Shown here piece by piece: positions 32-31,896 of a stretch of 64,000 nucleotides of DNA. The DNA lies in the NCBI GenBank assembly GCA_003251535.1, contig QKFD01000095.1:1-64000 (forward strand), in the 5' to 3' direction. The notes below the pieces were generated by a model. That model saw only the letters and a list, made by a program, of their open reading frames with translations. It was not told the DNA's origin and searched no databases. The position numbers and the translations under genes are program-made. Every line of letters begins with the position of its first letter. Position 1 is the first letter of the stretch. This DNA is from Chromatiales bacterium (lineage in GTDB: Bacteria > Pseudomonadota > Gammaproteobacteria > Thiohalomonadales > Thiohalomonadaceae).

Positions 32-677
32 TCGAATTCTCCTGGGTTCGCAGCCGGAGAAACTACCTGACAACGCCCCTCTTACCTACCCCCTCCCTCG
101 GCTGTCCTCGCCACAGAACTGTAAGGCGGGGGTGACCAGTCCCCCGGCTCCTTTCTGAGATTGTCTGTTTGTATTCTGCGGTCATGTGGGTGATTGACTT
201 CTTATGGGGGCAGCGATTTAGACGAATGTGGGCGCTGTATATGGCGCTATCTGCCGCAGTCGCGCTTGGCATTTACTCGGATGTGCGGAGGGTGGGTCGT
301 TTGGCAGAGAATGAGATGGCTGGTGGTGCCCTATATTTTTCTCGTTGTTGCGATGCTGGTCGGTGTGGCTTGGTGGGGCGAGGATGGGACTATATTGGAA
401 ATGGTATGTATACAAAGAAAGTGTCTTCTCCTCGGCTGACGACCCGCTTGATTTATTCTCCACAGGGTGAACGCGCTTGGCGTGTACGTGGCACTATGTT
501 GATGGTTGAGGTTGCTCCGCGGGCAGGCATCTGTGTGCGTGAGTGAGTTAGATCAGGCGCTGGAGGAGGTGTAAAGCGATACTGCCTATCTTGCTTAGGC
601 ACACGGCTGTTTGACGGGTTGTTTGTGTTCTTTATCAGCCCCCCCCGCCGCTCTCAGTTGGCGGCGGGGGGGGCAGG
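32..677. other. Intergenic region without a convincing gene
   Basis: About 650 bases less GC-rich than the flanks. Several short overlapping open frames exist (one at 194-439 has a hydrophobic stretch), but none has a good ribosome-binding site or a recognisable domain. The only clear structure is the hairpin at 639-673 next to the FccB-like gene. Confidence 0.5.
639..673 (-). terminator. GC-rich hairpin after the fccB-like gene
   Basis: A run of C followed by gccgc, a short loop, then gcggc and a run of G forms a very stable stem just past the stop codon at 678. There is no U-rich tail on the minus strand, so it may act as a stabilising 3' hairpin rather than a classic intrinsic terminator. 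Confidence 0.5.
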
Positions 678-1970
678 TCAGTAGAACAGATCGCGGGTGA
701 AGTTGTGGTACCAGCCGTAGGCGAACTCGGCCTCGAATTTGCGCTGTTCGGGGGTGGCGGTGAGGGGGGAGGTGCCGCCACTGCCGGCGACTGGTTCGAT
801 CAACTCGCCGTCGTCGGAGAGGCGGTAGATGCCGACGATGGAGATGGCGTAGTCGGGGGCGACGATGCTATAGCAGCCGTTGGAGAAGCTGGGGCTTGGG
901 GGTGTGGCGCCGTTTAACAGGGCGACGATGGCGCTGGCGCACACCTTGGCCTCAGAGTTGGCGGCGTAGCCCGATTTGGGTAGTGCATCGGCGATACAGG
1001 CGTCGCCGATGACGTGGATGGCGGGATGGCGGGTTGACTCGAAGGTCTGCCGATCCACCGGACACCAGCCGGTGGCGTCCACTAGATCGGCCAGCCAGGC
1101 CACCTTGCCCGCCTGCTGGGCGGGGATCAGATTGAGCACCTGGGCGGTGATGCTATCGCCGAATTCGGTGCGTACGGTGCGGCTGGCGGGGTCCACTGCC
1201 ACCACCCCGGCAGCGCTATCGGCCGAGTGCCACTCGATGAGGGCATTGGCGCCACCGTAGCCGTAGAGTTCGCTCCACGCCTGTTCAAACAGCGCCTGTT
1301 TGGCGAAGCTACTTTTGGGGTCGAGGATCACTACCTTGGAGTGGGGCTTGTGGCGTTGGAGGTAGCTGGCGATGAGGCTGGCCCGCTCGTAGGGGGCGGG
1401 TGGGCAGCGGTAGGGGTTGGGCGGTGCGGCGATCACCACGGTGCCGCCATCCTCCATTGCCGCCAGTTGGTTGCGCAGTAGCTCGGTCTGCGGCCCCGCC
1501 TTCCAGGCGTGGGGGATGCTTTGGGCCACTGCCTCGCTGTAGCCGTCGATGGTCTCCCAGCGGAAATCGACCCCCGGTGCCACCACGCAGCGATCAAAAG
1601 AGAGGCGTGCGCCACTGTCGGTGGTGACGCTACGCCCCACGGGGTCGATGGCGACGGCCGCCTCTGGCACCACCGTCACTCCGTGCGCCTCTAGCCCCTG
1701 ATAGCCGAAGGTAATGGCCTCCAGGGTGCGGTCGCCCACCAGCACCTCATTGCTCATGTAGCAGGTGGTGTAGCGTGGATTGGGTTCGAGCAGGGTGACG
1801 GCGATGGAGGGATCGGCCAGCCGCAGATATTTGGCCACGGTGACGCCGGCAGTACCGCCGCCCACTACCACCACGCGGGCACTGGCGGCGCGGGCGGGGG
1901 TGGCGGAGCCGGTGGCGTAGAGCGCCAGGCCGGCACCCAATCCTTTGAGAAAGTTGCGACGAGTGGTCAT
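678..1970 (-). CDS. FCSD-like flavoprotein, orphan FccB paralogue
   Basis: This is a 430-residue member of the flavocytochrome c sulfide dehydrogenase flavoprotein family, periplasmic enzymes that oxidise sulfide to sulfur and pass electrons through FAD to a diheme cytochrome. The N-terminus is a Tat signal ([13 protein letters not shown]), followed by the FAD-binding motif VVVVGGGTAGV. The Cys in TTCYMSNEV matches the residue that carries covalent FAD in the family. The Cys in YRCPPAPYER and in GWCPVDR match the redox disulfide pair. It is a diverged paralogue of the fccB at 29993-31285. It has no separate fccA beside it. It is the last gene after the DUF1592 and DUF1552 genes, 12 bases past the DUF1552 stop codon, and the DUF1592 protein carries an FccA-like domain. 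Sulfide as substrate is inferred; another sulfur compound is possible. Confidence 0.9.
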   Translation of the reverse strand: MTTRRNFLKGLGAGLALYATGSATPARAASARVVVVGGGTAGVTVAKYLRLADPSIAVTLLEPNPRYTTCYMSNEVLVGDRTLEAITFGYQGLEAHGVTVVPEAAVAIDPVGRSVTTDSGARLSFDRCVVAPGVDFRWETIDGYSEAVAQSIPHAWKAGPQTELLRNQLAAMEDGGTVVIAAPPNPYRCPPAPYERASLIASYLQRHKPHSKVVILDPKSSFAKQALFEQAWSELYGYGGANALIEWHSADSAAGVVAVDPASRTVRTEFGDSITAQVLNLIPAQQAGKVAWLADLVDATGWCPVDRQTFESTRHPAIHVIGDACIADALPKSGYAANSEAKVCASAIVALLNGATPPSPSFSNGCYSIVAPDYAISIVGIYRLSDDGELIEPVAGSGGTSPLTATPEQRKFEAEFAYGWYHNFTRDLFY

Positions 1971-1982
1971 CGGTTGGGCTCC

Positions 1983-3251
1983 TTAACCCAGCAGCCCCGG
2001 CAGCGGGCCGGGGGTGCCATCTTGATTGCCAAACTGGTTGATCGAGAGCCCCATGAACTGCGCGATCGAGACCAGCAGTTTGTTGTGGGGCACGCCGTCG
2101 TAGGCGAGGCTGCGGCCGGTGACCATCCCCCCGGCGCTGCCGCCGGCGAGGATGAACGGCATGTTTTGGTGGTCGTGCCAGCTGCCGTGACCCAGCTCGC
2201 TACCGGCGAAGATGAGGGTGTGGTCCAACAGGCTGCGGCCGTCGCTCTGGGGGATGGCCGCCAACTGCTGGATCAGTTTGGCCAGTTGGCGGCTGTACCA
2301 CGCCTTGATGTCGATGAAGTCCTGGCCCGACTCGTGGGAGGCCTGATGGCAGGTCTTCTGCGAGCCGCTGCCGGTGATCACCGCCTCATTGACCGCATGG
2401 TTCCACTTCAGCGTCACCACCCGAGTGAGATCGCAGGCGAGGGCGTGGACCGCCACATCGGTGTGGAGATCGCCAATCAGCTCCATGCGGGTGGTGTCCC
2501 GGTACTCCGGGTTGTCCCAGAAGGCGGTGCGGGTCACCTCAAAGCCGGTGGGGTTGAAGCCCCACGCCGGGCAGCTGCCGCCGGCGCTGGCGGCGAGCTT
2601 GTTCTTCACCTCTGCCAGCGATGCTAGGTGCTGGTCTAGCTTCTGCTGCTCGGCGCTACCGAGCCGGCTGCGCAGGGTGTTCAGCTCTCCCAGGGAGGCG
2701 TCGAGGGCGCTGATGCGGCGTTGGTTGGCCCCGCCGTCGTTGCTATTGGCGCCAAACAGCGAGTCAAAGGCGGCCAGCGGATTGGGTTCTGGCACCATGG
2801 CGACGCCGTTGTAGTCATAGGTGAGGTCATCGCTCTGCCACACCGGCACCACGTTGAGGTTGAGGTGGGGCTTGATGGTCTGCGCCTTGAAGGTCTGACC
2901 CAGGTGGTAGTCGAGGGAGACCTCCCGCTGGCCGGAGCCGCCACCGGCGCCGGTGAGGAGCTTGCGGGTGCCCCCTTCATGGGTGCTGCCGGGGCCGAAC
3001 ATATCGATGCCGTTGAGGAACAGGCAGTGCTGGCGCACCGTCTGCAACGGCGCGGTCATCGCCGGGAGGGTGAAGTCGCTGCCGGTGCCTTGGGCGTGCC
3101 ACGCCTCGGGACGGGCGCCATCAGGGAAGTAGACAAAGATGGCGCGCCGCGGGGGGGCCGCCCCCTCCGCCTGCGCCAGACGCGCAAAGGAGAGGCTGAG
3201 GGCAGAGAGGCCGGCGCCGGTCAGGGTCTTGAGAAAGGATCTTCTATTCAC
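1983..3251 (-). CDS. Tat-exported DUF1552 protein
   Basis: A 422-residue DUF1552 family protein. DUF1552 genes are typically paired with DUF1592/DUF1588 cytochrome genes in planctomycetes and some gammaproteobacteria; their reaction is unknown, and the fold is thought to be related to sulfatase-like DUF1501 proteins. I choose the GTG at 3251 because it gives a clean twin-arginine signal (NRRSFLKTLTGAG) and is preceded by GGAGGAG at good spacing; a TTG at 3266 would add five residues. The body contains typical family segments such as FLNGIDMFGPGSTHEGG and GSELGHGSWHDHQNMPF, whose histidines could bind metal. It starts 15 bases after the stop of the 1328-residue protein and ends 12 bases before the FccB-like start, so the three are very probably one operon. 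Confidence 0.85.
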   Translation of the reverse strand: MNRRSFLKTLTGAGLSALSLSFARLAQAEGAAPPRRAIFVYFPDGARPEAWHAQGTGSDFTLPAMTAPLQTVRQHCLFLNGIDMFGPGSTHEGGTRKLLTGAGGGSGQREVSLDYHLGQTFKAQTIKPHLNLNVVPVWQSDDLTYDYNGVAMVPEPNPLAAFDSLFGANSNDGGANQRRISALDASLGELNTLRSRLGSAEQQKLDQHLASLAEVKNKLAASAGGSCPAWGFNPTGFEVTRTAFWDNPEYRDTTRMELIGDLHTDVAVHALACDLTRVVTLKWNHAVNEAVITGSGSQKTCHQASHESGQDFIDIKAWYSRQLAKLIQQLAAIPQSDGRSLLDHTLIFAGSELGHGSWHDHQNMPFILAGGSAGGMVTGRSLAYDGVPHNKLLVSIAQFMGLSINQFGNQDGTPGPLPGLLG

Positions 3252-3266
3252 AGTGCTCTCCTCCAA

Positions 3267-6200
3267 TCACGGCGCACGGCGCAGGGTGAAGCCAGGGGTG
3301 GCGACGATATCGAGCAGCATGGTGTTGAGGTTGTAGCCGCTGGCGGCATACCCCTCGATGTAGCTGCCGAGGGCGCACTGATCCGCGCTCCCCTCCTGGC
3401 GACCGGTGGCATAGCGGTAGTACTGGGTGGCGAGACACTCCGCCGCCTGCTGACTGCTGGCGGTGAGCTGGCTCAGCTCCATGAGATCGGCAAACGGGAT
3501 CTGCTCACTGGCGTCGAAGGTCTCCATGCCGCGGATGAGGCCGCTGGCGTCGATCGGGTGGCCATTCTCAACGTTACGGAACTGACCGGCACCGTCGTAT
3601 TTTTCAAAGGCGAAGCCGGGGTCATCGATGAACTGATGGCAGCTCCAGCAGCTCTCGCCTGAACTACTGTGGAAGTTGAACCGCTCCCGGGTGGTGGCGT
3701 TCGGATCCGGCTCTGGCGGGATCACCACACCGTTGTTCTCCGGGGGGGGCAGGTTGTGGCACAACACCCGACGGAACAGGAACGCGCCCCGTTTGAAGGG
3801 GTGTGATTCGGCGGCGTTGGCGTAACGGGCGAGCACGGCGCCGAGGGTGAAGATGCCGGTGCGGGTGCCATCGGTGACCGCTACAGGCGATGGCAGCGAA
3901 CCGGCGCCGGTGAGGCCGTAGTAGCTGCCTAGGGTGGTGTCCACCATGGCGTAGTCGGCGGTGAACAGCTCATCGAAACGCTGACTGGAGTCGAACGCCA
4001 CATGGTTGAAGAAGTCGATCAACTCCTCCGCCATGGCGGCCCGCACCTCTGCGGTGTAGGCCGGATAGGCGTTGGCATCCTTCTCCGGGAGGGCGTAGGG
4101 GCTGGCGGCGAGGAGCCACTGACCGACAAAGTTACCCACCTGGCGATGGCCCGCCGCGGTGTTGAGCAGCCGTGCCGCCTGGCTGATGCGCTGCGGGGCC
4201 GTGGCCAGCTGGCCGGCTGCCGCCGCTTGCATCAGGGTGGCATCGGGCATGGTGCCGGCAAACAGGTAGGCGAGGGCGCTGGCCACCTCGTAGGGGGTGA
4301 GCTGGTAGCTGCCATCGGCCTGTAGTTCACCCAGCTCAGAGCGGTAGAGGAAATGGGGAGATACCAGCATCTCCAGCAGCGTGGTCTCCACTGCGTCAGG
4401 GAACGGCTGGTTGACGAAGTTTGCCTGGTACTGTTGTACCTCGCTCTCGGTCAATGGGCGGCGATAGGCGCGTAGGCCGAACTGCCGCACAAACTGCTCG
4501 GCGCAGCTGCTGTCTTGGCTGGTGCAGGGCAGTAGCTGGTGCCAGCGCTCGGCCACCGCTTGGGCGGCCAGGCTATCGGCTTGCAGCACGTAGCTCTCCA
4601 GACGGTCGGCGGTTACCAGGTTCTGCTCGGTGTTGTTGTCGAAGCCGTTGACCCGGTTCTCGGCCGGCATGAGCTGGATCAGATCCACCTCCAGGCCGAG
4701 GAGATCGTTGATCGTGTTCTGGTACTCCTGACGGGTCAGCAGCCGCAGGGTGCGCAGGCCGGCCGGCGGGGTGTCGTCACAGGCCGGGAGCGGTCCACCG
4801 CCCCCACCACTCTCCGCCAGGGTTGTGATGATGTAGTCGGCGGTGGCCAGGGCGCAGTTGTCGCCACAGGCGGCCGGGTTGGTGGGTGGCATGGTGGTGT
4901 GGATAAGGTCGCTCAGGGTGGCGAGCTGGCTGGCGCTGTAGCCGTTGATGGCGCCGGCAACGCCGCCGCGGCCATCGGCCCCATGGCAGTGGGCGCAGCC
5001 CTGCACCTGGTACTGCTGGGCGCCGTAGTCGAGCAGGGTCAGTAGCTCCACCAGCACGCTCGGCCCCTCGCTGCTGCCGGCGTCGTTGTAGGCGAGGACG
5101 CGGTACTGGTAGCTGGCGCCCATGGTCACCTCGGTGTCGCGGTAGGTGAGGCTACCGGCGGCCAGGTCCACCAGCGGTGCCCAGGGGGCGCTGCTGCTCA
5201 GGCGGCGCTCGATGCGGAAGCCGAGTTCGTTGTCGCTGCGGTCATCCCAGGAGAGGTTGACCTGGGCGTTATCCACCACCGCCGCCCCGATCAGGCTGGG
5301 GGGGAGCGGTGCCACCGTGGGGTCGCCGCCACCGCTACCGCCGCCGCCGCCGGTGCCCCCCGCCTTGGCGTCAGCGGGGGCGGCATAGAACTGGGCCAGG
5401 GCGGCTAGATCGTCGCTACTGAGTGCGGCCAGACGGCTCGCCATCAGCGGTGGGGTGTTGCTGGAGTGGCCGGCGGCATACTCTGCCAGGGTGGCGTGCA
5501 GGTAGCCGGACCACTGGCCATCGAGCCGGGTACCGGTGCCGGCACTCTGCTCCCCTACACCGGCGTGGCAGGTGATGCAGCCCGCCTCATGCAGGGCGCG
5601 CCCGCGATCCACCGCCGTTTGGGGGGCGGGCTGATAGGTGGGGACGAAGTTCTGACTGGCGAAGTAGGCGGCCAGCCGGGTGAGCTGCTCGTCGTCATAA
5701 CCGCGGGCGATGCGGCCCATGATGCTGGCGGCACGCTCTCCGCTGCGATAGGCGCGCAGGGTGCGCAGTAGATAGTCACCCTCCAGGCCGGCGATGGTGG
5801 GGACCCCAGGGCCGCCACTGACCCCGCCAGGGCCGTGGCAGATGGTGCAGTTGTTGACCAGCATCGGTGTGGCAATGGCGTTGCGGTCTTGCCGCTCCAC
5901 CGAGACCAGTGCCGTGTAGGGGGAGCTACCGGCGGCATTGACCGCCTTCAGTCGATAGTCGTAGCGCACCCCCACTGCCAGGCTGTGGTCTTCATACTGG
6001 AGGGTGTCGGGTGGCAGGGTCGCCAGCGTACTCCAGCCGCCCCCCTCTGCCTGTCGCTCCAGCACCAGGCTGGTCTCATCGGCATTGGGCTCCTGCCAGG
6101 TGAGCTGTGCCCAGTGGTTGGCCACCAGCTCGGCCCGCAACATTGTGGGGGCATCGGGCGGAAGCTCTACGCTGTCGGCTTGGCCGTCACAGCGGACGCC

Positions 6201-7253
6201 GTTGACCGCCAGGTCGATGGGCTTGGGGTTCTGTCCCTGGTGGCTGCCGACAAAGCTGAAGGAGAGGTTGCCGTCGGTGGGGATGAGGCGGTTCTCCGCC
6301 AGGTTGCCCACCGTCACTGCGGCCCCCTCCTGCTGGAGCGTACCGTTCCAGAGATCGGTAACCTGCTGACCGGCAGGCATGGTCCAGGTGGTCTGCCAGC
6401 CGTTCCAGGGGGCGCCGGTATTGGTGATCTCCACTTGGGCGGAGAAGCCATCCTGCCACTGTTCGAGGATCTGGTAGTCAACTCGGCAGGCGGGCGGTGG
6501 TGGTGGCGGTGGCGCCACCTGGCCTGCGCACTCCACCCCGTTGAGGGCGATGTCACCGGGGATGTTGTTGAGGCCGCTGTGGCTGGCATTGAAGCCAAAC
6601 TCGATCACCCCAGCGCTCGCCACGGTGCCGTTCCAGCTCTCGTTGTCCACTGCCACCTGCGCCCCCGTCTGCGTCAGGAGGCCGTTCCAGAGATGGGTAA
6701 TGACCTGCTGGTTGGGCATTGCCCAGGTCACCTGCCAGCCGTTGAGCGCATCGCCGCTGTTGTGGACGGCCACGGCGGCGGTAAAGCCGTCGCTCCACTG
6801 GTCAACGATGGTGTACTCCACCTCGCAGGCGACCACCGGTTCCGGCGGCGGCGCCAGCGGGGGCTGGCCCTCGCACACCACGCCATTGACGCTGATGTTG
6901 CTGGGCGCCCGGTTGCGTGCGCCGCTATAGCTGCCGGTGAAGCCGAAATCGAACTGACCGTCGGTGGCCACGGTGCCGTTCCAATCGGCATTGGCCACCT
7001 CCACCTGGGGACCCGCGGCGACTAGCGTGCCGTTCCATAGTTGGGTGATGAGCTGCCCATCTGGCATCTCCCACGCCACCTGCCACTGGTCGAGGGGCGA
7101 GCCTAGATTGGTGATGGCCAGCGCGGCGTTAAAACCGCCGCCCCAGTCGTCGGTGATGGTGTATTCGGCACGGCAGGCAACGGCTGCCCAGGTAGGGGCG
7201 ATGGGGAGCGTCAGGGAGACGCCGAGGCCCAACAGATAGAGCTTGGTTCGCAT
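3267..7253 (-). CDS. Secreted CBM2 / FnIII / multiheme DUF1592 fusion protein
   Basis: A 1328-residue exported protein (signal peptide residues 1-23). Domains in order: three CBM2-type carbohydrate-binding modules (about 27-127, 143-242, 256-355), each with the NGW/WNGT/NGV.C pattern of cellulose-binding CBM2; fibronectin III (366-455); a diheme cytochrome domain (458-625, CTICH at 469 and CITCH at 559); a Gly/Ser linker; a second FnIII (649-738); a monoheme domain (740-812, CAHCH at 753); then the DUF1587/1595/1592/1588/1585 module (836-1320) with RVLCHNLPPP and CWSCH at 1202. Residues 458-625 align by eye over their whole length with FccA in this window, for example PTIAGL, AYRSGER and RIARGY. 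The reaction is unknown. Gene order with DUF1552 and an FccB paralogue suggests an extracytoplasmic redox complex bound to polysaccharide. Confidence 0.88.
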   Translation of the reverse strand: MRTKLYLLGLGVSLTLPIAPTWAAVACRAEYTITDDWGGGFNAALAITNLGSPLDQWQVAWEMPDGQLITQLWNGTLVAAGPQVEVANADWNGTVATDGQFDFGFTGSYSGARNRAPSNISVNGVVCEGQPPLAPPPEPVVACEVEYTIVDQWSDGFTAAVAVHNSGDALNGWQVTWAMPNQQVITHLWNGLLTQTGAQVAVDNESWNGTVASAGVIEFGFNASHSGLNNIPGDIALNGVECAGQVAPPPPPPPACRVDYQILEQWQDGFSAQVEITNTGAPWNGWQTTWTMPAGQQVTDLWNGTLQQEGAAVTVGNLAENRLIPTDGNLSFSFVGSHQGQNPKPIDLAVNGVRCDGQADSVELPPDAPTMLRAELVANHWAQLTWQEPNADETSLVLERQAEGGGWSTLATLPPDTLQYEDHSLAVGVRYDYRLKAVNAAGSSPYTALVSVERQDRNAIATPMLVNNCTICHGPGGVSGGPGVPTIAGLEGDYLLRTLRAYRSGERAASIMGRIARGYDDEQLTRLAAYFASQNFVPTYQPAPQTAVDRGRALHEAGCITCHAGVGEQSAGTGTRLDGQWSGYLHATLAEYAAGHSSNTPPLMASRLAALSSDDLAALAQFYAAPADAKAGGTGGGGGSGGGDPTVAPLPPSLIGAAVVDNAQVNLSWDDRSDNELGFRIERRLSSSAPWAPLVDLAAGSLTYRDTEVTMGASYQYRVLAYNDAGSSEGPSVLVELLTLLDYGAQQYQVQGCAHCHGADGRGGVAGAINGYSASQLATLSDLIHTTMPPTNPAACGDNCALATADYIITTLAESGGGGGPLPACDDTPPAGLRTLRLLTRQEYQNTINDLLGLEVDLIQLMPAENRVNGFDNNTEQNLVTADRLESYVLQADSLAAQAVAERWHQLLPCTSQDSSCAEQFVRQFGLRAYRRPLTESEVQQYQANFVNQPFPDAVETTLLEMLVSPHFLYRSELGELQADGSYQLTPYEVASALAYLFAGTMPDATLMQAAAAGQLATAPQRISQAARLLNTAAGHRQVGNFVGQWLLAASPYALPEKDANAYPAYTAEVRAAMAEELIDFFNHVAFDSSQRFDELFTADYAMVDTTLGSYYGLTGAGSLPSPVAVTDGTRTGIFTLGAVLARYANAAESHPFKRGAFLFRRVLCHNLPPPENNGVVIPPEPDPNATTRERFNFHSSSGESCWSCHQFIDDPGFAFEKYDGAGQFRNVENGHPIDASGLIRGMETFDASEQIPFADLMELSQLTASSQQAAECLATQYYRYATGRQEGSADQCALGSYIEGYAASGYNLNTMLLDIVATPGFTLRRAP

Positions 7254-7504: not shown

Positions 7505-8365
7505 ATGATGGGCAGGGCTGGGATAGATGAGGCGGTCGTGGCGGCCAGCGAGCGGCTACTGGCCCTCTATCAGCAGGGCCAGGGGGGTGGACCGATGCAG
7601 CTGCGGGAGCGGTTGCCGGCGCTACTCAGCCCATGGTTGCAGTGCAGCGATGTGACCTGGCACCACGGGGTGGCGATGGCCGCTGGCAGGGCTCCCCGCC
7701 GGCAGCCCTGCCCCGGCGGGGCGCAGCTCCAGGGGTGGCATGGCCACGGTGATGCCGGCGTCTGTTTTCGGCTCTTCCGGGCCGCCGCCCCCTTTCTGCC
7801 GCATGAGGCGGAGCAGTTGGGCCGGCTGCTCCCCCATCTGGCGGCGGTGGTGGCGATCAACCAGCAGCTCTGGCTGGCGCAGCGGGAGGCGGCTGGGGAG
7901 GCGGTGGCGCTGGTGACGGGTAATGGGCAGTTGCGCTGTGTCACCCAGCACGGCCAGCGGCTGCTCCGGCAGGAGTGGCCTGCGGGTCGGGTCCCCTGGC
8001 GGCGGCTACTGGCAGCGGACGGGGGAGGCTATGTCGGCCACCGGATAAAGCTGAGGCTCACCCATCTGGGGGCTGACTGGTTGGTGCAGATGGCGATCTG
8101 CTCCCCCTTGATGCAGCTGACCCCTCGTGAGTGGGAGATCGTCCGCTGCTTCAGCCAGGGGCGTAGCTACAAGGTGGTGGCCCTGGAGATCGGCCTCTCG
8201 CCGGCCACGGTGCGTAACCATTTGACCCGTATTTACCGCAAGTTAGCCATCCACGATAAGGGGGCGTTAGCCACCCTGCTGCAAGGGGCGGCGGGCACAG
8301 GCGCGGCACTGAGTGTGGCGGCGACGTTGCAAAGGCTGGGATCTGGGGGGGCAAAGGGCCCATAA
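7505..8365 (+). CDS. LuxR-type transcriptional regulator
   Basis: A 286-residue protein with a C-terminal LuxR/GerE helix-turn-helix (about residues 198-260: LTPREWEIVRCFSQGRSYK then LSPATVRNHLTRIYRKL). The first 190 residues form a sensor-like region that I do not recognise; it has no receiver aspartate pattern and lacks clear autoinducer-binding motifs, so it is a LuxR-type regulator of unknown ligand. The start could be the ATG at 7505 or the next one at 7508. It is divergent from the DUF1592/DUF1552/FccB-like operon across 250 bases, making that operon a plausible target. The nif block lies downstream on the same strand but is probably separately controlled from a sigma-54 promoter. Confidence 0.8.
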   Translation: MMGRAGIDEAVVAASERLLALYQQGQGGGPMQLRERLPALLSPWLQCSDVTWHHGVAMAAGRAPRRQPCPGGAQLQGWHGHGDAGVCFRLFRAAAPFLPHEAEQLGRLLPHLAAVVAINQQLWLAQREAAGEAVALVTGNGQLRCVTQHGQRLLRQEWPAGRVPWRRLLAADGGGYVGHRIKLRLTHLGADWLVQMAICSPLMQLTPREWEIVRCFSQGRSYKVVALEIGLSPATVRNHLTRIYRKLAIHDKGALATLLQGAAGTGAALSVAATLQRLGSGGAKGP

Positions 8366-8801: not shown

Positions 8802-8951
8802 GATCCCCCTCGCTGCCACCGCCCGCCGCCGTTCGTAGAGGTACAGCCCTACCCCCCTGAGTTCCTAACGGTACGCGCCGTGGCTGGCGGCGGCGGCGCT
8901 GCCTCGCCGCATCGCCTGCTTCCTGTTGCGGTCGCGGGTTGTGGCGAGGCG

Positions 8952-8967
8952 TGGCATACCCCTTGCT
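8952..8967 (+). promoter_or_regulatory. Sigma-54 promoter of the nif block
   Basis: TGGCAT-N5-TTGCT matches the RpoN consensus TGGCAC-N5-TTGCW, with GG and GC separated by exactly ten bases. It lies 38 bases before the nifE start codon, as expected for NifA/RpoN-driven nif genes. I looked for a NifA upstream site (TGT-N10-ACA) between 8802 and 8950 and did not find an intact one. Confidence 0.8.
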
Positions 8968-9004
8968 CAACCCCTCCCACCATCGTCATCCCGGGAGAGA
9001 GCCC

Positions 9005-10384
9005 ATGAATGCGCAAGAGATCCAGCGCCTGCTCGATGAGCCGGCCTGCGCCCATAACCAGAGCGCCAAGAGTGGCTGCGCCAAGGGCAAACCCGGCGCC
9101 ACCCAAGGCGGCTGCGCATTCGACGGCGCCCAGATCGCCCTGCTGCCCATCGCCGATGCCGCCCACATCGTCCACGGCCCCATCGGCTGCGCCGGCAGCT
9201 CGTGGGACGCCCGCGGCACCCGCTCCTCCGGCCCCACCCTCTATCGCACCGGCATGACCACCGATCTCTCCAACATCGATGTGGTCATGGGGCGGGGTGA
9301 GGAGCGGCTCTTCTTCTCGGTGAAAGAGGCGATCGAGAAGTACCAACCGGCGGCGGTCTTTATCTACAGCACCTGCGTCACCGCCCTCCAGGGGGATGAC
9401 CTCGGCGCGGTGGCCAAGGCGGCCAGCGAGCGCTGGGGGGTGCCGGTGGTGCCGGTGGATTGCGCCGGTTTTTATGGCGGGAAGAACTTTGGCAACCGCA
9501 TCGCCGGTGATGTGCTCTGCCGCCATGTCATCGGTGGCCGCGAGCCGGAGCCGGTGCCGGCCTCGGCGCAGCGCCCCGGGGTGACGGTCCACGACATCAA
9601 CCTCATCGGCGAATACAACATCGTGGGCGAGTTTTGGCAGGTGGCGCCGCTGTTTGACGAGTTGGGGCTGCGCATCCTCTGCACCCTCTCCGGCGACGCC
9701 CGCTTCCGCGAGGTGCAGTGGATGCACCGGGCGGAGGTGAACATGGTGGTCTGCTCCAAGGCGATGCTAAATGTCGCCCGCCAGCTGCATGAGCAGTACG
9801 CCACCCCCTACTTTGAAGGCAGTTTCTACGGCATCGCCGACACCTCAAGCGCGCTACGCGGCTTCGCCCGCTTGCTGGATGACCCGGCCCTGACGGCGCG
9901 CACCGAGGCGCTGATCGCCCGTGAGGAGGCGCAGACGCGGGCGGAGCTGGCGCGTTGGGCCGAGCGCTTGACCGGCAAGCGGGCGCTCATCTTCTCCGGC
10001 GGGGTCAAGTCGTGGTCGATCATCTCGGCGCTCCAGGATCTGGGGATCACGGTGGTGGCCAGCGGCACCGAGAAGTCCACCGAGGAGGATCGCGCCCGTA
10101 TCCGCGAGCTGATGGGGGAGGAGACCCGCATGATCGACGACAACGACCAGGCGGCCCTGATGGCCACCTGCCGCGACTACGGCGCCGATATCCTCATCGC
10201 CGGTGGCCGCTACCTCCAGGCGGCGCTGAAGTCGGGTATCCCCTTCCTCGACATCAACCACGAGCGCGATTTTGGCTACGCCGGTTACAGCGGCATCGTT
10301 GAGCTGGCGCGCCAGCTCGCCCACGCCATCTCCAGTCCCATCTGGCCGCAGATCCACCGTCCGGCCCCGTGGCGCTGCCACTAA
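9005..10384 (+). CDS. nifE: Nitrogenase FeMo-cofactor scaffold NifE
   Basis: NifE (459 residues) forms an alpha2beta2 complex with NifN on which the FeMo-cofactor precursor from NifB is matured before transfer to the MoFe protein. It belongs to the nitrogenase component 1 family and keeps the cofactor/cluster-region cysteines (GGCAFDGAQ, Cys37; [10 protein letters not shown], Cys62; [11 protein letters not shown]). [13 protein letters not shown] is typical of NifE and argues against NifD. The start at 9005 is chosen because of GGGAGAGA upstream and the sigma-54 promoter just before it; an in-frame start at 8939 would overlap that promoter. nifN follows after 25 bases. Confidence 0.92.
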
Positions 10385-10409
10385 CAGTCGCCACCCCGAG
10401 GAGGGCTCC

Positions 10410-11789
10410 ATGACCACCGTAGTGACCCCCAATAAGGCGCTGACCGTCGATCCGCTCAAGGTCAGTCAACCGATGGGCGCCGTGCTGGCGCTGCTCGGTA
10501 TCGATCGCTCACTCCCCCTGGAACACGGCGCGCAGGGCTGCACCGCCTTTAGCAAGGTCTTCTTCACCCGCCACTTCCGGGAGCCGATCCCGTTGCAGAC
10601 CACCGCCATGGACCACAGCGTGACGGTGATGGGGGCCGACGCCAGTGTGGTGACCGCCCTCGCCACCATCGCCGAGAACCACCACCCCGATCTCATCGGC
10701 CTGGTCACCACCGGCCTCAGTGAGACCCAAGGGGCCGATATCCTCCGCACGGTGCGGGAGTTTCGCCTGGCCTATCCCCACTTCAGTGAGGTGGCGGTGG
10801 TGGCGATCAATGCGCCGGATACGGTCGGCTGTCTGGAGTCGGGCTACGCCCTGGCGCTGGAGGCGCTGGTGGAGGAGCTGGTGCCGGTAGGGCGGCGGGC
10901 GGGCCAGCGGCCGCAACAGGTCAATGTGCTGGCCGGCTCGCTGCTCACCCCGGGGGATATCGAGGTGCTGGGGGAGTGGATCGCCGCCTTCGGTCTCACC
11001 CCCTGCTTCCTCCCTGATCTCGGCAGCTCGCTAGATGGTCGTCTCACCCCCCTCGGCTTCTCCAATCTCACCGTCGGTGGCAGCCGGCTGGCGGATATCG
11101 CCACCATGGGGGAGGCGGCCGCCACGCTGGTGATCGGCCCCTCCTTACAGCGCGCTGCCGACCGGTTGCGGGAGCGCACTGGGGTGCCCGACTACCGCTT
11201 TGACGGCCTGCTGGGATTGATGGCGTGTGATCGCTTCACCGCCACCTTGGCGGCCATCGCTCACCGCTCGGTGCCGGAGGTGATCGAGCGACAGCGGGCG
11301 CAGCTGCTGGACGCGATGGTCGATGGCCACCTCCAGTTTGGCGGGGCGCGGGTCGGGGTGGCGGCGGATCCCGATCTACTCGGCATGTGGGTCACCTTCC
11401 TGAGCGATCTGGGTATCGAGACCGTGGCCGCGGTGGCGGCGGCACGGGGTGACGGGTTGGCCCGGCTCCCCATCGAGACGGTGACGGTGGGGGATCTGGA
11501 GGACCTTGAAACCGCTGCCCGGGCCGCCGGGGCACAGTTGATCATCGCCAACTCCCATGCCGCTGAACCGGCGCGTCGGCTGCGGGTGCCGTTGCTGCGG
11601 GCCGGCTTTCCTCTCTATGACCGGCTCGGCGCCTACGCCCGGCGCTGGGTGGGCTACAGCGGATCGCGCCAGGCGCTGTTTGATATCGCCAACCTGCTGG
11701 CGGAGCAGCGGCCCGGCATTGCGCCCCACCGCTCCATCTACTGGAACGATACCCCGCGGGCCGCGGAGTGGTCGGTCGGTGCAGGTTAG
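10410..11789 (+). CDS. nifN: Nitrogenase FeMo-cofactor scaffold NifN
   Basis: NifN (459 residues) is the partner subunit of NifE in FeMo-cofactor assembly. Start at the ATG at 10410, with GAGGAGGG directly upstream. The N-terminus (PLKVSQPMGAVLALLGIDRS) and the cluster-binding region LEHGAQGCTAFSKVFFTRHF are characteristic. Further family blocks are ETQGADI and NVLAGSLLTPGDIE. It follows nifE and precedes nifX in the usual order and spacing, so the three form one operon. Confidence 0.92.
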   Translation: MTTVVTPNKALTVDPLKVSQPMGAVLALLGIDRSLPLEHGAQGCTAFSKVFFTRHFREPIPLQTTAMDHSVTVMGADASVVTALATIAENHHPDLIGLVTTGLSETQGADILRTVREFRLAYPHFSEVAVVAINAPDTVGCLESGYALALEALVEELVPVGRRAGQRPQQVNVLAGSLLTPGDIEVLGEWIAAFGLTPCFLPDLGSSLDGRLTPLGFSNLTVGGSRLADIATMGEAAATLVIGPSLQRAADRLRERTGVPDYRFDGLLGLMACDRFTATLAAIAHRSVPEVIERQRAQLLDAMVDGHLQFGGARVGVAADPDLLGMWVTFLSDLGIETVAAVAAARGDGLARLPIETVTVGDLEDLETAARAAGAQLIIANSHAAEPARRLRVPLLRAGFPLYDRLGAYARRWVGYSGSRQALFDIANLLAEQRPGIAPHRSIYWNDTPRAAEWSVGAG

Positions 11790-29992: not shown

Positions 29993-31285
29993 TTAGCCGA
30001 AGACGTCGTGGGTGATGTTGCGGAACCAGGAGTGGGCGTAGGAGACCTCCCGCTTCAGGTTGGCATCACTAGCATCGGCAGGGGTGAGGCCGCCGGCGTC
30101 CTTCACTGCGGCGATCTTGCCATCCTCGCCCAGCCGGTAGACGGCGGCGACGGAGATGCCGTGATCCGGGGTGATGATGGAGTAGCAGGTGTTGACGTAG
30201 GAGGGCTCCGGTGCACTGCCACCCTTCAGCAGGGCCACGATGGCGGAGGCGCACACCTTGGCCTGGGAGTTGGCAGAGTAGCCAGATTTGGGCATCGGGG
30301 AGGCGTTGGAGGCGTCGCCGATGACGTGGATATCCTTGTGGACGGTCGATTCAAAGGTCTTTTGGTCCACAGGGCACCAACCAGCATCGTCGGTGAGGCC
30401 GGCGTCGAAGGCGATCTTGCCCGCCTGCTGCGGTGGGATGACGTTGAGGACGTCCGCTTTGTACTCCTCCACTGCCGCCTGTATCGTCAGGGCGTCGGCA
30501 TCGATGGACTCCACCTTGCCGCCGTCGGCACCGCTCACCCACTTGATCATGGATGTCTCGGTGCCATAGCCGTAGTGCTTCTTCCAGCCGGCCAGGAACA
30601 GCCCCTGCTTGGAGAACTTGTCCTTGGGATCGAGGATGACGATCTTTGACTTGGGCTTGTGGTTTTTCAGGTACCAGGCGATCTGCGAGGCGCGCTCGTA
30701 GGGTCCCGGGGGGCAGCGGAACGGGTTGGGCGGTGCGACGATGACGACAGTGCCGCCATCCTTCATCTCCTCCAGCTGCTTGCGGAGCAGGGTGGTTTGC
30801 GGACCCGCCTTCCAGGCGTGGGGGATCTTCTCCGCCAGCTCGGCGCTGAAGCCGGGGATCGCGTCAAACTTGAAGCTGACGCCGGGGGAGACCACGCAAC
30901 GGTCATATGCAAAGCTCTGGCCGCCAGCGGTGGTGACCTTTTTGCCTGCTGCATCGATGCCGCTGACCGTATCGTGCACCACCGTAACACCGTGCTTCTT
31001 CAGCCCTTCGTAGTCGAAGGTGATGGAGTCGAGGGTGCGCTCACCAGAGAGGACCTCGTTGCTCATGAAGCAGGTGTGGTACTTCTCGTTGGCCTCGATC
31101 AGGGTGACATCGACGCTGCTATCCATCATGCGGATATATTTTGCGGTGGTGCAGCCACCCACACCGCCGCCGACCACCACTACCTTCTTGCCTTCGGCGT
31201 GGCTGACCGCGGGAAAGCCGAGGGCACCGATGGCGGCGACGCCGCCGGAGAGCTTGAGGAAGTTTCTACGTGTCGTGTGAGTCAT
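29993..31285 (-). CDS. fccB: Flavocytochrome c sulfide dehydrogenase flavoprotein subunit
   Basis: FccB (430 residues) is the FAD subunit of periplasmic sulfide dehydrogenase, oxidising sulfide to sulfur and reducing the diheme FccA. It has a Tat signal ([14 protein letters not shown]), the FAD motif [10 protein letters not shown], the flavin-attaching Cys in HTCFMSNEV and the disulfide Cys pair in [10 protein letters not shown] and GWCPVDQ. The C-terminal FCSD flavin-binding domain is complete. The start at 31285 gives the clean Tat signal; a GTG at 31306 overlapping the fccA stop (GTGA) would add seven residues. It directly follows fccA and ends at a strong terminator. Confidence 0.93.
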
Positions 31286-31302
31286 CTCGTTTCCCCGTCC
31301 TA

Positions 31303-31896
31303 TCACTTGCCCTGGCTGGCGTAGAAGTTGAGCAGGGCCGGTAGCCCCTCGTCACCGGCCTTCAACTGAAGCTCTTCCACCTTCTTCTTCATCTTCTTCG
31401 GCATCTCGCGCGTGCCGGCCTTGAAGTCTTCAAAGGTGTAGCTCAGGTAAGGGGTCCACTGGCCCCCTAGCAGGCCGGCATCGTCCTCACTGGAGGTGCC
31501 GCCATCCTCATGGCACTTTTCGCAGAACTGTTTGTGCAGCACGGCCCCCTTCTTGGCCAGCGCCGCATCGAACTTCTGCTGCTGCGGCTCGTAGCTCATG
31601 CCGGAGAAGAAGACGGCCATCGCCTCGATCTCTTCGTCGGTGTAGCCCTTGGCGATGCGATTCATGATGGTGGCGGGACGCTCGCCGGCCCGGTAGGCCT
31701 TCATCGCATCCACAAAATAGGCCTTGGAGATCCCGGCGATGGTGGGCGAGGCCGGCCCCATGCTGACGCCGTGGGTCCCATGGCAACCGGAACAGGTGTT
31801 GCCGAGCATCTCGCCGCTCGGCGTCGCTTGGGCGGTGCCCCCTAGCAGTAGGCCGCCGAGTAGCAGCGCACCCAGAAGCGGTTTTCTATTTTTCAT
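31303..31896 (-). CDS. fccA: Flavocytochrome c diheme cytochrome subunit
   Basis: FccA (197 residues) accepts electrons from FccB. It has a Sec signal peptide (residues 1-24) and two c-type heme sites, CSGCH at 35-39 and CEKCH at 125-129, in the two-domain layout of the family. The following segments ([25 protein letters not shown]) are the blocks also found inside the 1328-residue protein at 3267-7253. The gap to the fccB ATG at 31285 is 17 bases. Confidence 0.92.

Follow-up and report, generated by a model that had tools for sequence, protein, structure and literature searches.

We analysed a 64,000-nucleotide stretch of a Chromatiales bacterium genome (assembly GCA_003251535.1, contig QKFD01000095.1, positions 1 to 64,000; hereafter the window), which carries three consecutive genes on the minus strand, separated by gaps of at most 12 bp. 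In this order, they encode a large exported protein, a DUF1552/HXXSHH protein and FccB2, a flavoprotein subunit of the flavocytochrome c type. No standalone fccA adjoins the FccB2 gene, and an FccA-type domain is found only within the large protein, two genes upstream. The features of this operon and the canonical flavocytochrome c genes used for comparison are as follows.

3267..7253, minus strand: large exported tetraheme protein, 1328 aa (open reading frame, Pfam, X183 profile, CXXCH count)
6189..7175, minus strand: three CBM2 domains, with all three surface tryptophans present in two of the three
5379..5882, minus strand: residues 458-625, an FccA-like segment with two hemes (C469, C559), for which Met512 and Met604 are the likely axial ligands
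4809..5033, minus strand: X183-family monoheme cytochrome domain, heme C753 (Pfam, profile search)
3270..4805, minus strand: PSD3 (DUF1587), PSD5, PSD4 (DUF1592), PSCyt3 (heme C1202) and PSD2; X132-like module
1983..3266, minus strand: HXXSHH (DUF1552) protein, 427 aa, with an N-terminus of the twin-arginine translocation (Tat) type and a predicted alkaline-phosphatase-superfamily fold (Pfam and predicted structure)
678..1970, minus strand: FccB2, flavocytochrome c-type flavoprotein subunit, 430 aa, Tat-type N-terminus, Cys70/189/366 (Pfam, alignments, tree)
639..674, minus strand: G+C-rich inverted repeat directly 3' of FccB2, without a T run, possible operon end (by eye)
29993..31306, minus strand: canonical FccB1, for comparison (Pfam and alignment)
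31303..31896, minus strand: canonical diheme FccA, for comparison (alignment)

The embedded FccA domain and FccB2

The large protein begins with a Sec-type signal, followed in the Pfam scan by three CBM_2 domains (carbohydrate-binding module family 2, CBM2), an fn3 domain, a cytochrome c pair, a second fn3 domain, a monoheme cytochrome and the run PSD3/PSD5/PSD4/PSCyt3/PSD2. Two of its four CXXCH hemes, C469 and C559, lie in the FccA segment, and the other two, C753 and C1202, lie outside it. The initial annotation, made from the sequence of the window, had linked three CBM2 modules to a DUF1592/DUF1552 module, and these domains are indeed present in the operon (CBM_2 three times, PSD4 and HXXSHH). 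The part that follows the FccA segment had gone unrecognised and is best read as the X183-X132 region of the Cellvibrio protein Cbp2D. Searched as a profile, the monoheme domain matched the Teredinibacter X183 structures 8q1v (4.6e-15) and 8q1w (1.3e-9) and the Cbp2D structure 7b21 (2.9e-8), with the next family at about 1e-3. The PSD module (PSD3/DUF1587, PSD4 and PSCyt3 with C1202), matched by domain description, is best read as the counterpart of X132; its structure prediction was poor (predicted local distance difference test score, pLDDT, of 51), and a sequence search found no solved relative.

Residues 458-625 align along their full length with the canonical FccA of the window (39% identity, 124 bits), in agreement with the by-eye alignment in the initial annotation. 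Against solved structures, this segment scored 94 bits with the FccA chain of 3vrd and 92 bits with that of 1fcd, compared with 60 bits for cytochrome c4. We built quick maximum-likelihood trees of FccA and FccB with SH-like approximate likelihood ratio test (SH-aLRT) support, the former from the embedded domains recovered in the survey described below, 27 canonical FccA and 13 c4-like proteins. In the FccA tree, the c4 proteins fall outside as the outgroup (support 100), and the embedded domains group as a single clade (99) beside canonical FccA. Furthermore, the FccA-specific residues R514, Y519, Q541, H555, M604 and Y623 are each kept in at least 96% of the embedded domains and in at most 8% of c4 proteins. 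A generic cytochrome c4/c5 origin of the segment, raised as the alternative in the initial annotation, is ruled out by the bit scores, the outgroup position of c4 and the signature residues. By these sequence comparisons, residues 458-625 are an FccA-type diheme domain that shares ancestry with canonical FccA.

FccB2 contains the Pfam domains FCSD_central and FCSD-flav_bind, is 55% identical to FccB1 and matches 3vrd_B with 502 bits. Its Cys70, Cys189 and Cys366 align with Cys42, Cys161 and Cys337 of solved FccB, that is, with Cys42, the attachment site of 8-alpha-cysteinyl FAD, and the redox pair Cys161/Cys337. Alignment thus identifies FccB2 as a true member of the FccB family, and the earlier description of an FccB paralogue that keeps the flavin and disulfide cysteines and has no fccA of its own holds. 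The accompanying premise that a diheme FccA is the only partner with which FccB functions proved too strict, given that the partner of FccB in 5n1t is a monoheme cytochrome of 102 aa, that monoheme flavocytochromes c have been reported (PMC12010331) and that several of the loci we surveyed have a monoheme partner.

Co-occurrence with fccB and the carriers of the operon

The survey consisted of PSD4 searches in the order and the class of the window, in two other orders and in the phylum, followed by FccB searches and a reading of the loci. We identified two types of operon that contain an embedded FccA-like domain. Type I has the layout seen in the window, with a large protein composed of two to four CBM2 domains, fn3, the FccA-like domain, fn3, a monoheme cytochrome and the PSD module, followed by HXXSHH and FccB genes. 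It is complete in 16 genomes from six genera and three families, 11 of the 16 being Thiothrix; in one of these loci the CBM2 end lies beyond the contig edge, and one further copy ends before FccB at a contig end. The CBM2 proteins that host the FccA domain are 1254-1695 aa long, and all 16 type I large proteins scanned have exactly four CXXCH motifs. In type II, PA14 repeats, fn3, the FccA-like domain and a PSD-like part make up the large protein, and DUF1501 and FccB genes follow; it is complete in 10 loci, and two more are interrupted, either where the contig ends or by what looks like a frameshift.

The initial annotation had proposed that the large protein supplies the cytochrome subunit of FccB2 and that FccA-like domains should co-occur with orphan fccB genes in other genomes. 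Both proposals gain support from the survey, in which FccB immediately follows the middle gene in every complete operon (16 type I and 10 type II). None of the 13 operons that combine a PSD protein with the middle gene and lack the FccA domain has an adjacent FccB, and 10 of the 12 genomes of such operons that were searched have no FccB anywhere. The flavin cysteine and both active-site cysteines are present in all 26 fused-operon FccBs, and these proteins make up a single clade (100) that lies within the canonical FccBs. The same FccA and FccB pair is found in two operon backgrounds, with the middle gene and the host background differing between types I and II. As judged from gene content and order, the embedded FccA domain pairs strictly with fccB in the operons surveyed.

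Searches with the large protein found no relatives among viral contigs and only distant PSD relatives on plasmids, none with 80% coverage. A scan of genome contigs with the large-protein alignment recovered mostly c4 proteins, along with a small number of PSD proteins that lack the FccA domain. In one Methylococcaceae metagenome-assembled genome (L036 3153-5525), we observed a CBM2-fn3-X183-PSD protein without the FccA domain, on a contig that stops before the downstream genes; this architecture is likely a picture of the state that preceded the insertion. In another genome (G459, L143), the type II large gene is apparently broken within the FccA-like domain and FccB is intact; an error in the sequencing may explain this, or the gene may be decaying.

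One type I genome (G431) is that of Thiothrix caldifontis, with 100% identity over 4001 bases to a DSM 21228 contig, and therefore the 11 type I genomes that carry its genus label are assigned to Thiothrix. In nine of the 11, every FccB that scored above about 68 bits belongs to a type I or type II operon. A distant FccB-like group also occurs in Thiothrix (L155-L158), with Pro replacing the flavin cysteine and two different cytochrome genes nearby. In one Thiothrix genome (G432, L137 and L147), a type I and a type II operon stand back to back in divergent orientation, with a gap of about 275 bp, and two Thiothrix type I reading frames (L138, L136) have, with the annotated starts, some 200-350 additional N-terminal residues ahead of the CBM2 array.

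Across the 48 CBM2 domains of the 16 type I proteins, Trp occupies three columns in 48, 46 and 35 domains, respectively; we take these columns to be the cellulose/chitin-binding face of CBM2. We infer from these sequences that the large protein is tethered to polysaccharide. In 12 of the 16 genomes, no CBM2 domain was found other than those of the operon protein, which argues against feeding on plant cellulose and for a ligand in the matrix or sheath. Thiothrix filaments have polysaccharide sheaths (PMC9319827); the literature searched does not give the polymer.

The predicted structure of the HXXSHH protein (pLDDT 78.9) matched NPP, sulfatase and PafA chains with Z scores of 16-17 over 241-280 residues at 3.3-4.8 Å, and an alkaline-phosphatase-superfamily fold is predicted accordingly. 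DUF1501, the family of the type II middle gene, is also found in bacterial chitin-synthase clusters (PMC5122149). Together, this fold and this context hint at a polysaccharide, or its decorations, as the object of the middle gene.

Outside the three-gene unit, a comparison of flanking genes across orders found nothing conserved, and no sigma-70-like promoters were found 5' of the operon. In the window, a divergent gene for a LuxR-family (GerE) regulator (7505-8365) lies immediately upstream and is not conserved in the other orders, and nitrogenase genes (nifE/nifN-like, 8939-11789) adjoin the operon. The operon of one Thiothrix genome (G445, L129 1-4252) adjoins nifH, nifD-like genes and DRAT; the nif adjacency in these two cases could be due to chance or to a shared island history.

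A proposed polysaccharide-anchored flavocytochrome c and its alternatives

We propose, with a probability of roughly 0.68, that the operon encodes a flavocytochrome c with its cytochrome subunit inside an exported carbohydrate-binding protein, which would be anchored to polysaccharide and would deliver electrons from sulfur compounds into a Cbp2D-like chain. The Tat-exported FccB2 would fold with covalent flavin adenine dinucleotide (FAD) and dock on residues 458-625 as FccB does on free FccA. At the FAD/Cys189-Cys366 site it would oxidise sulfide, or else a sulfane or thiol related to it, and the electrons would travel from FAD to heme C469, heme C559, the X183 heme C753 and finally the X132/PSD heme C1202. 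The CBM2 array would hold the complex on a polysaccharide with beta-1,4 linkages, for which the sheath or matrix of the organism itself is a likelier candidate than plant cellulose taken up as food. Output would run through X132 and the HXXSHH protein, a role that X132 may also have in Cellvibrio Cbp2D. The pairing of the FccA domain with FccB, seen in gene content, is the best-supported step of this mechanism; we infer the physical complex, the sulfide substrate, the order of the hemes, the polysaccharide ligand and the final acceptor.

Several observations weigh against this proposal. Tyr306, Thr336 and Trp391 of FccB sit between flavin and heme and have been proposed as the electron path (PMC12010331; the Allochromatium vinosum numbers of the second and third residue appear to be swapped there, and we assigned them by alignment). 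The Tyr306 and Thr336 positions are invariant in 27 of 27 canonical FccBs, whereas among the fused-operon FccBs Thr336 is replaced by Gly and Tyr306 by Phe, each in 23 of 26. FccB2 of the window has Gly365 in place of the Thr, retains the Tyr (Tyr335) and has the invariant Trp420 that corresponds to Trp391. To judge from the residues involved, these changes could mean altered electron transfer or a different substrate. In addition, each of the two trees places the fused-operon sequences in a single clade, so that the fused operons are not independent events; this implies long retention of the pairing and its use in two host backgrounds rather than many gains.

The flavocytochrome might instead only power a cellulose- or chitin-active machine of the kind proposed for Cbp2D, either a lytic polysaccharide monooxygenase (LPMO) or X132, with sulfide serving as the reductant for oxidative cleavage and not as an energy source. 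This alternative, which we consider rather unlikely, draws on the nearest known architecture being Cbp2D: without this protein, growth on insoluble cellulose is not normal (PMC12542752), and its X183 domain can reduce an LPMO, though slowly (PMC8981238, PMC10916295). Teredinibacter X183 domains, however, did not feed an LPMO (PMC10916295), and the 12 genomes without another CBM2 offer no hint of a set of CBM2 cellulases (no search for LPMO genes was made).

Somewhat less probable still is a real flavocytochrome acting on another substrate, be it a persulfide, a polysulfide or an organic thiol, or running in reverse and reducing sulfur with electrons from polysaccharide oxidation. The fused-operon FccBs share F187Y, G192A, T365G, Y335F (not in the window) and I424F, changes that neighbour each of the two active-site cysteines or fall on the path from flavin to heme, with positions 187 and 192 flanking an active-site cysteine. 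Yet the active-site pair, the flavin cysteine, Glu195 and Trp420 are all invariant, these proteins nest inside canonical FccB, and known sulfide oxidisers are among the carriers (Thiothrix; PMC9319827).

It is very unlikely that FccB2 partners the canonical FccA about 24 kb away and that the embedded diheme is a mere electron carrier in a polysaccharide redox protein. Canonical FccA and FccB1 do share the window with the operon, and this FccA resembles the embedded domain, but the nine type I Thiothrix genomes noted above have no other strong FccB and no obvious free FccA (no direct FccA search was made), the fused-operon FccB clade mirrors the embedded FccA clade, and fccB accompanies the embedded domain and is missing where the domain is missing. 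Neutral hitch-hiking of fccB in an operon of unrelated function would fit the single clades and the few independent events they allow, but is highly improbable given the short spacing conserved across three families and six genera, the constancy of the FccA and FccB pair while middle gene and host background change, and the consistent lack of an adjacent FccB where the FccA domain is missing.

If the anchored flavocytochrome c is the correct reading, a broader one can be offered tentatively, with the odds somewhat against it: the operons would define a group of sulfide dehydrogenases held on polysaccharide outside the cell, where they would pass sulfide electrons into a Cbp2D-type heme chain. 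Lithotrophic sulfur oxidation would then be physically tied to the sheath or matrix, and in most Thiothrix species this form, rather than the soluble FccAB of textbooks, would be the main flavocytochrome c. The available text of three genome papers lists fccAB for Thiothrix without mention of the unusual form (PMC9319827, PMC7767063, PMC9455678), and such annotations may denote the tethered one. Cultivated Thiothrix species carry the operon, and thus both the in vivo role of flavocytochrome c and the electron source and function of the Cbp2D/X183/X132 proteins become testable.

Comparison with known systems

In the literature searched, which covered few subscription papers, we found no description of a flavocytochrome c fused to a CBM or to DUF1592. 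The known FccAB complexes (1FCD, 3VRD and the monoheme 5N1T) share with the operon the FccB fold, the flavin cysteine, the active-site cysteine pair and the Trp391 equivalent, and 1FCD and 3VRD also share the diheme domain of FccA type, its two CXXCH motifs and the FccA-specific residues. They differ in that FccA is a small subunit encoded beside fccB, whereas here it is a domain of a CBM2 protein encoded two genes from fccB, and Thr336 and, mostly, Tyr306 are replaced. The role of flavocytochrome c in vivo is itself disputed (PMC11267869).

The pairs of PSD/DUF1592 with DUF1552 proteins and of DUF1501 with DUF1800 proteins, the latter known from chitin-synthase clusters (PMC5122149), have the same core of a PSD-type heme protein and a Tat-exported protein of the alkaline-phosphatase fold. 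In the operons described here, the FccA domain and fccB are added to this core, unlike in the 13 other loci, which lack both. A works-like analogy is offered by fungal cellobiose dehydrogenase, a flavin and heme redox enzyme on cellulose with folds unrelated to those of the operon proteins. It is a flavocytochrome that combines a GMC flavoprotein with a cytochrome b, uses sugar as its substrate and has a CBM in some forms.

The closest architecture is that of Cbp2D of Cellvibrio japonicus, CBM2-X158(YceI)-FN3-X183-X132, in which the authors who described it annotated DUF1587 (PMC8981238); together with Cbp2E, this protein matters for growth on insoluble cellulose (PMC12542752). Cbp2D and Teredinibacter turnerae TERTU_2913 resemble the window protein in having CBM2, FN3, an X183 monoheme domain and then a DUF1587-containing heme module (X132 in Cbp2D, its probable counterpart in the window protein). 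In contrast to Cbp2D, the window protein has no YceI-like X158 quinone domain in the Pfam scan; an FccA diheme domain occupies the redox-input position, and fccB is part of the operon. This swap of the input domain, YceI in Cbp2D and FccA with FccB here, points to X183-X132 as a shared output module that receives its electrons from a redox head particular to each host. The operon thereby joins sulfide oxidation by flavocytochrome c with the extracellular redox proteins of the Cbp2D/X183/X132 kind, two fields that have so far stood apart.

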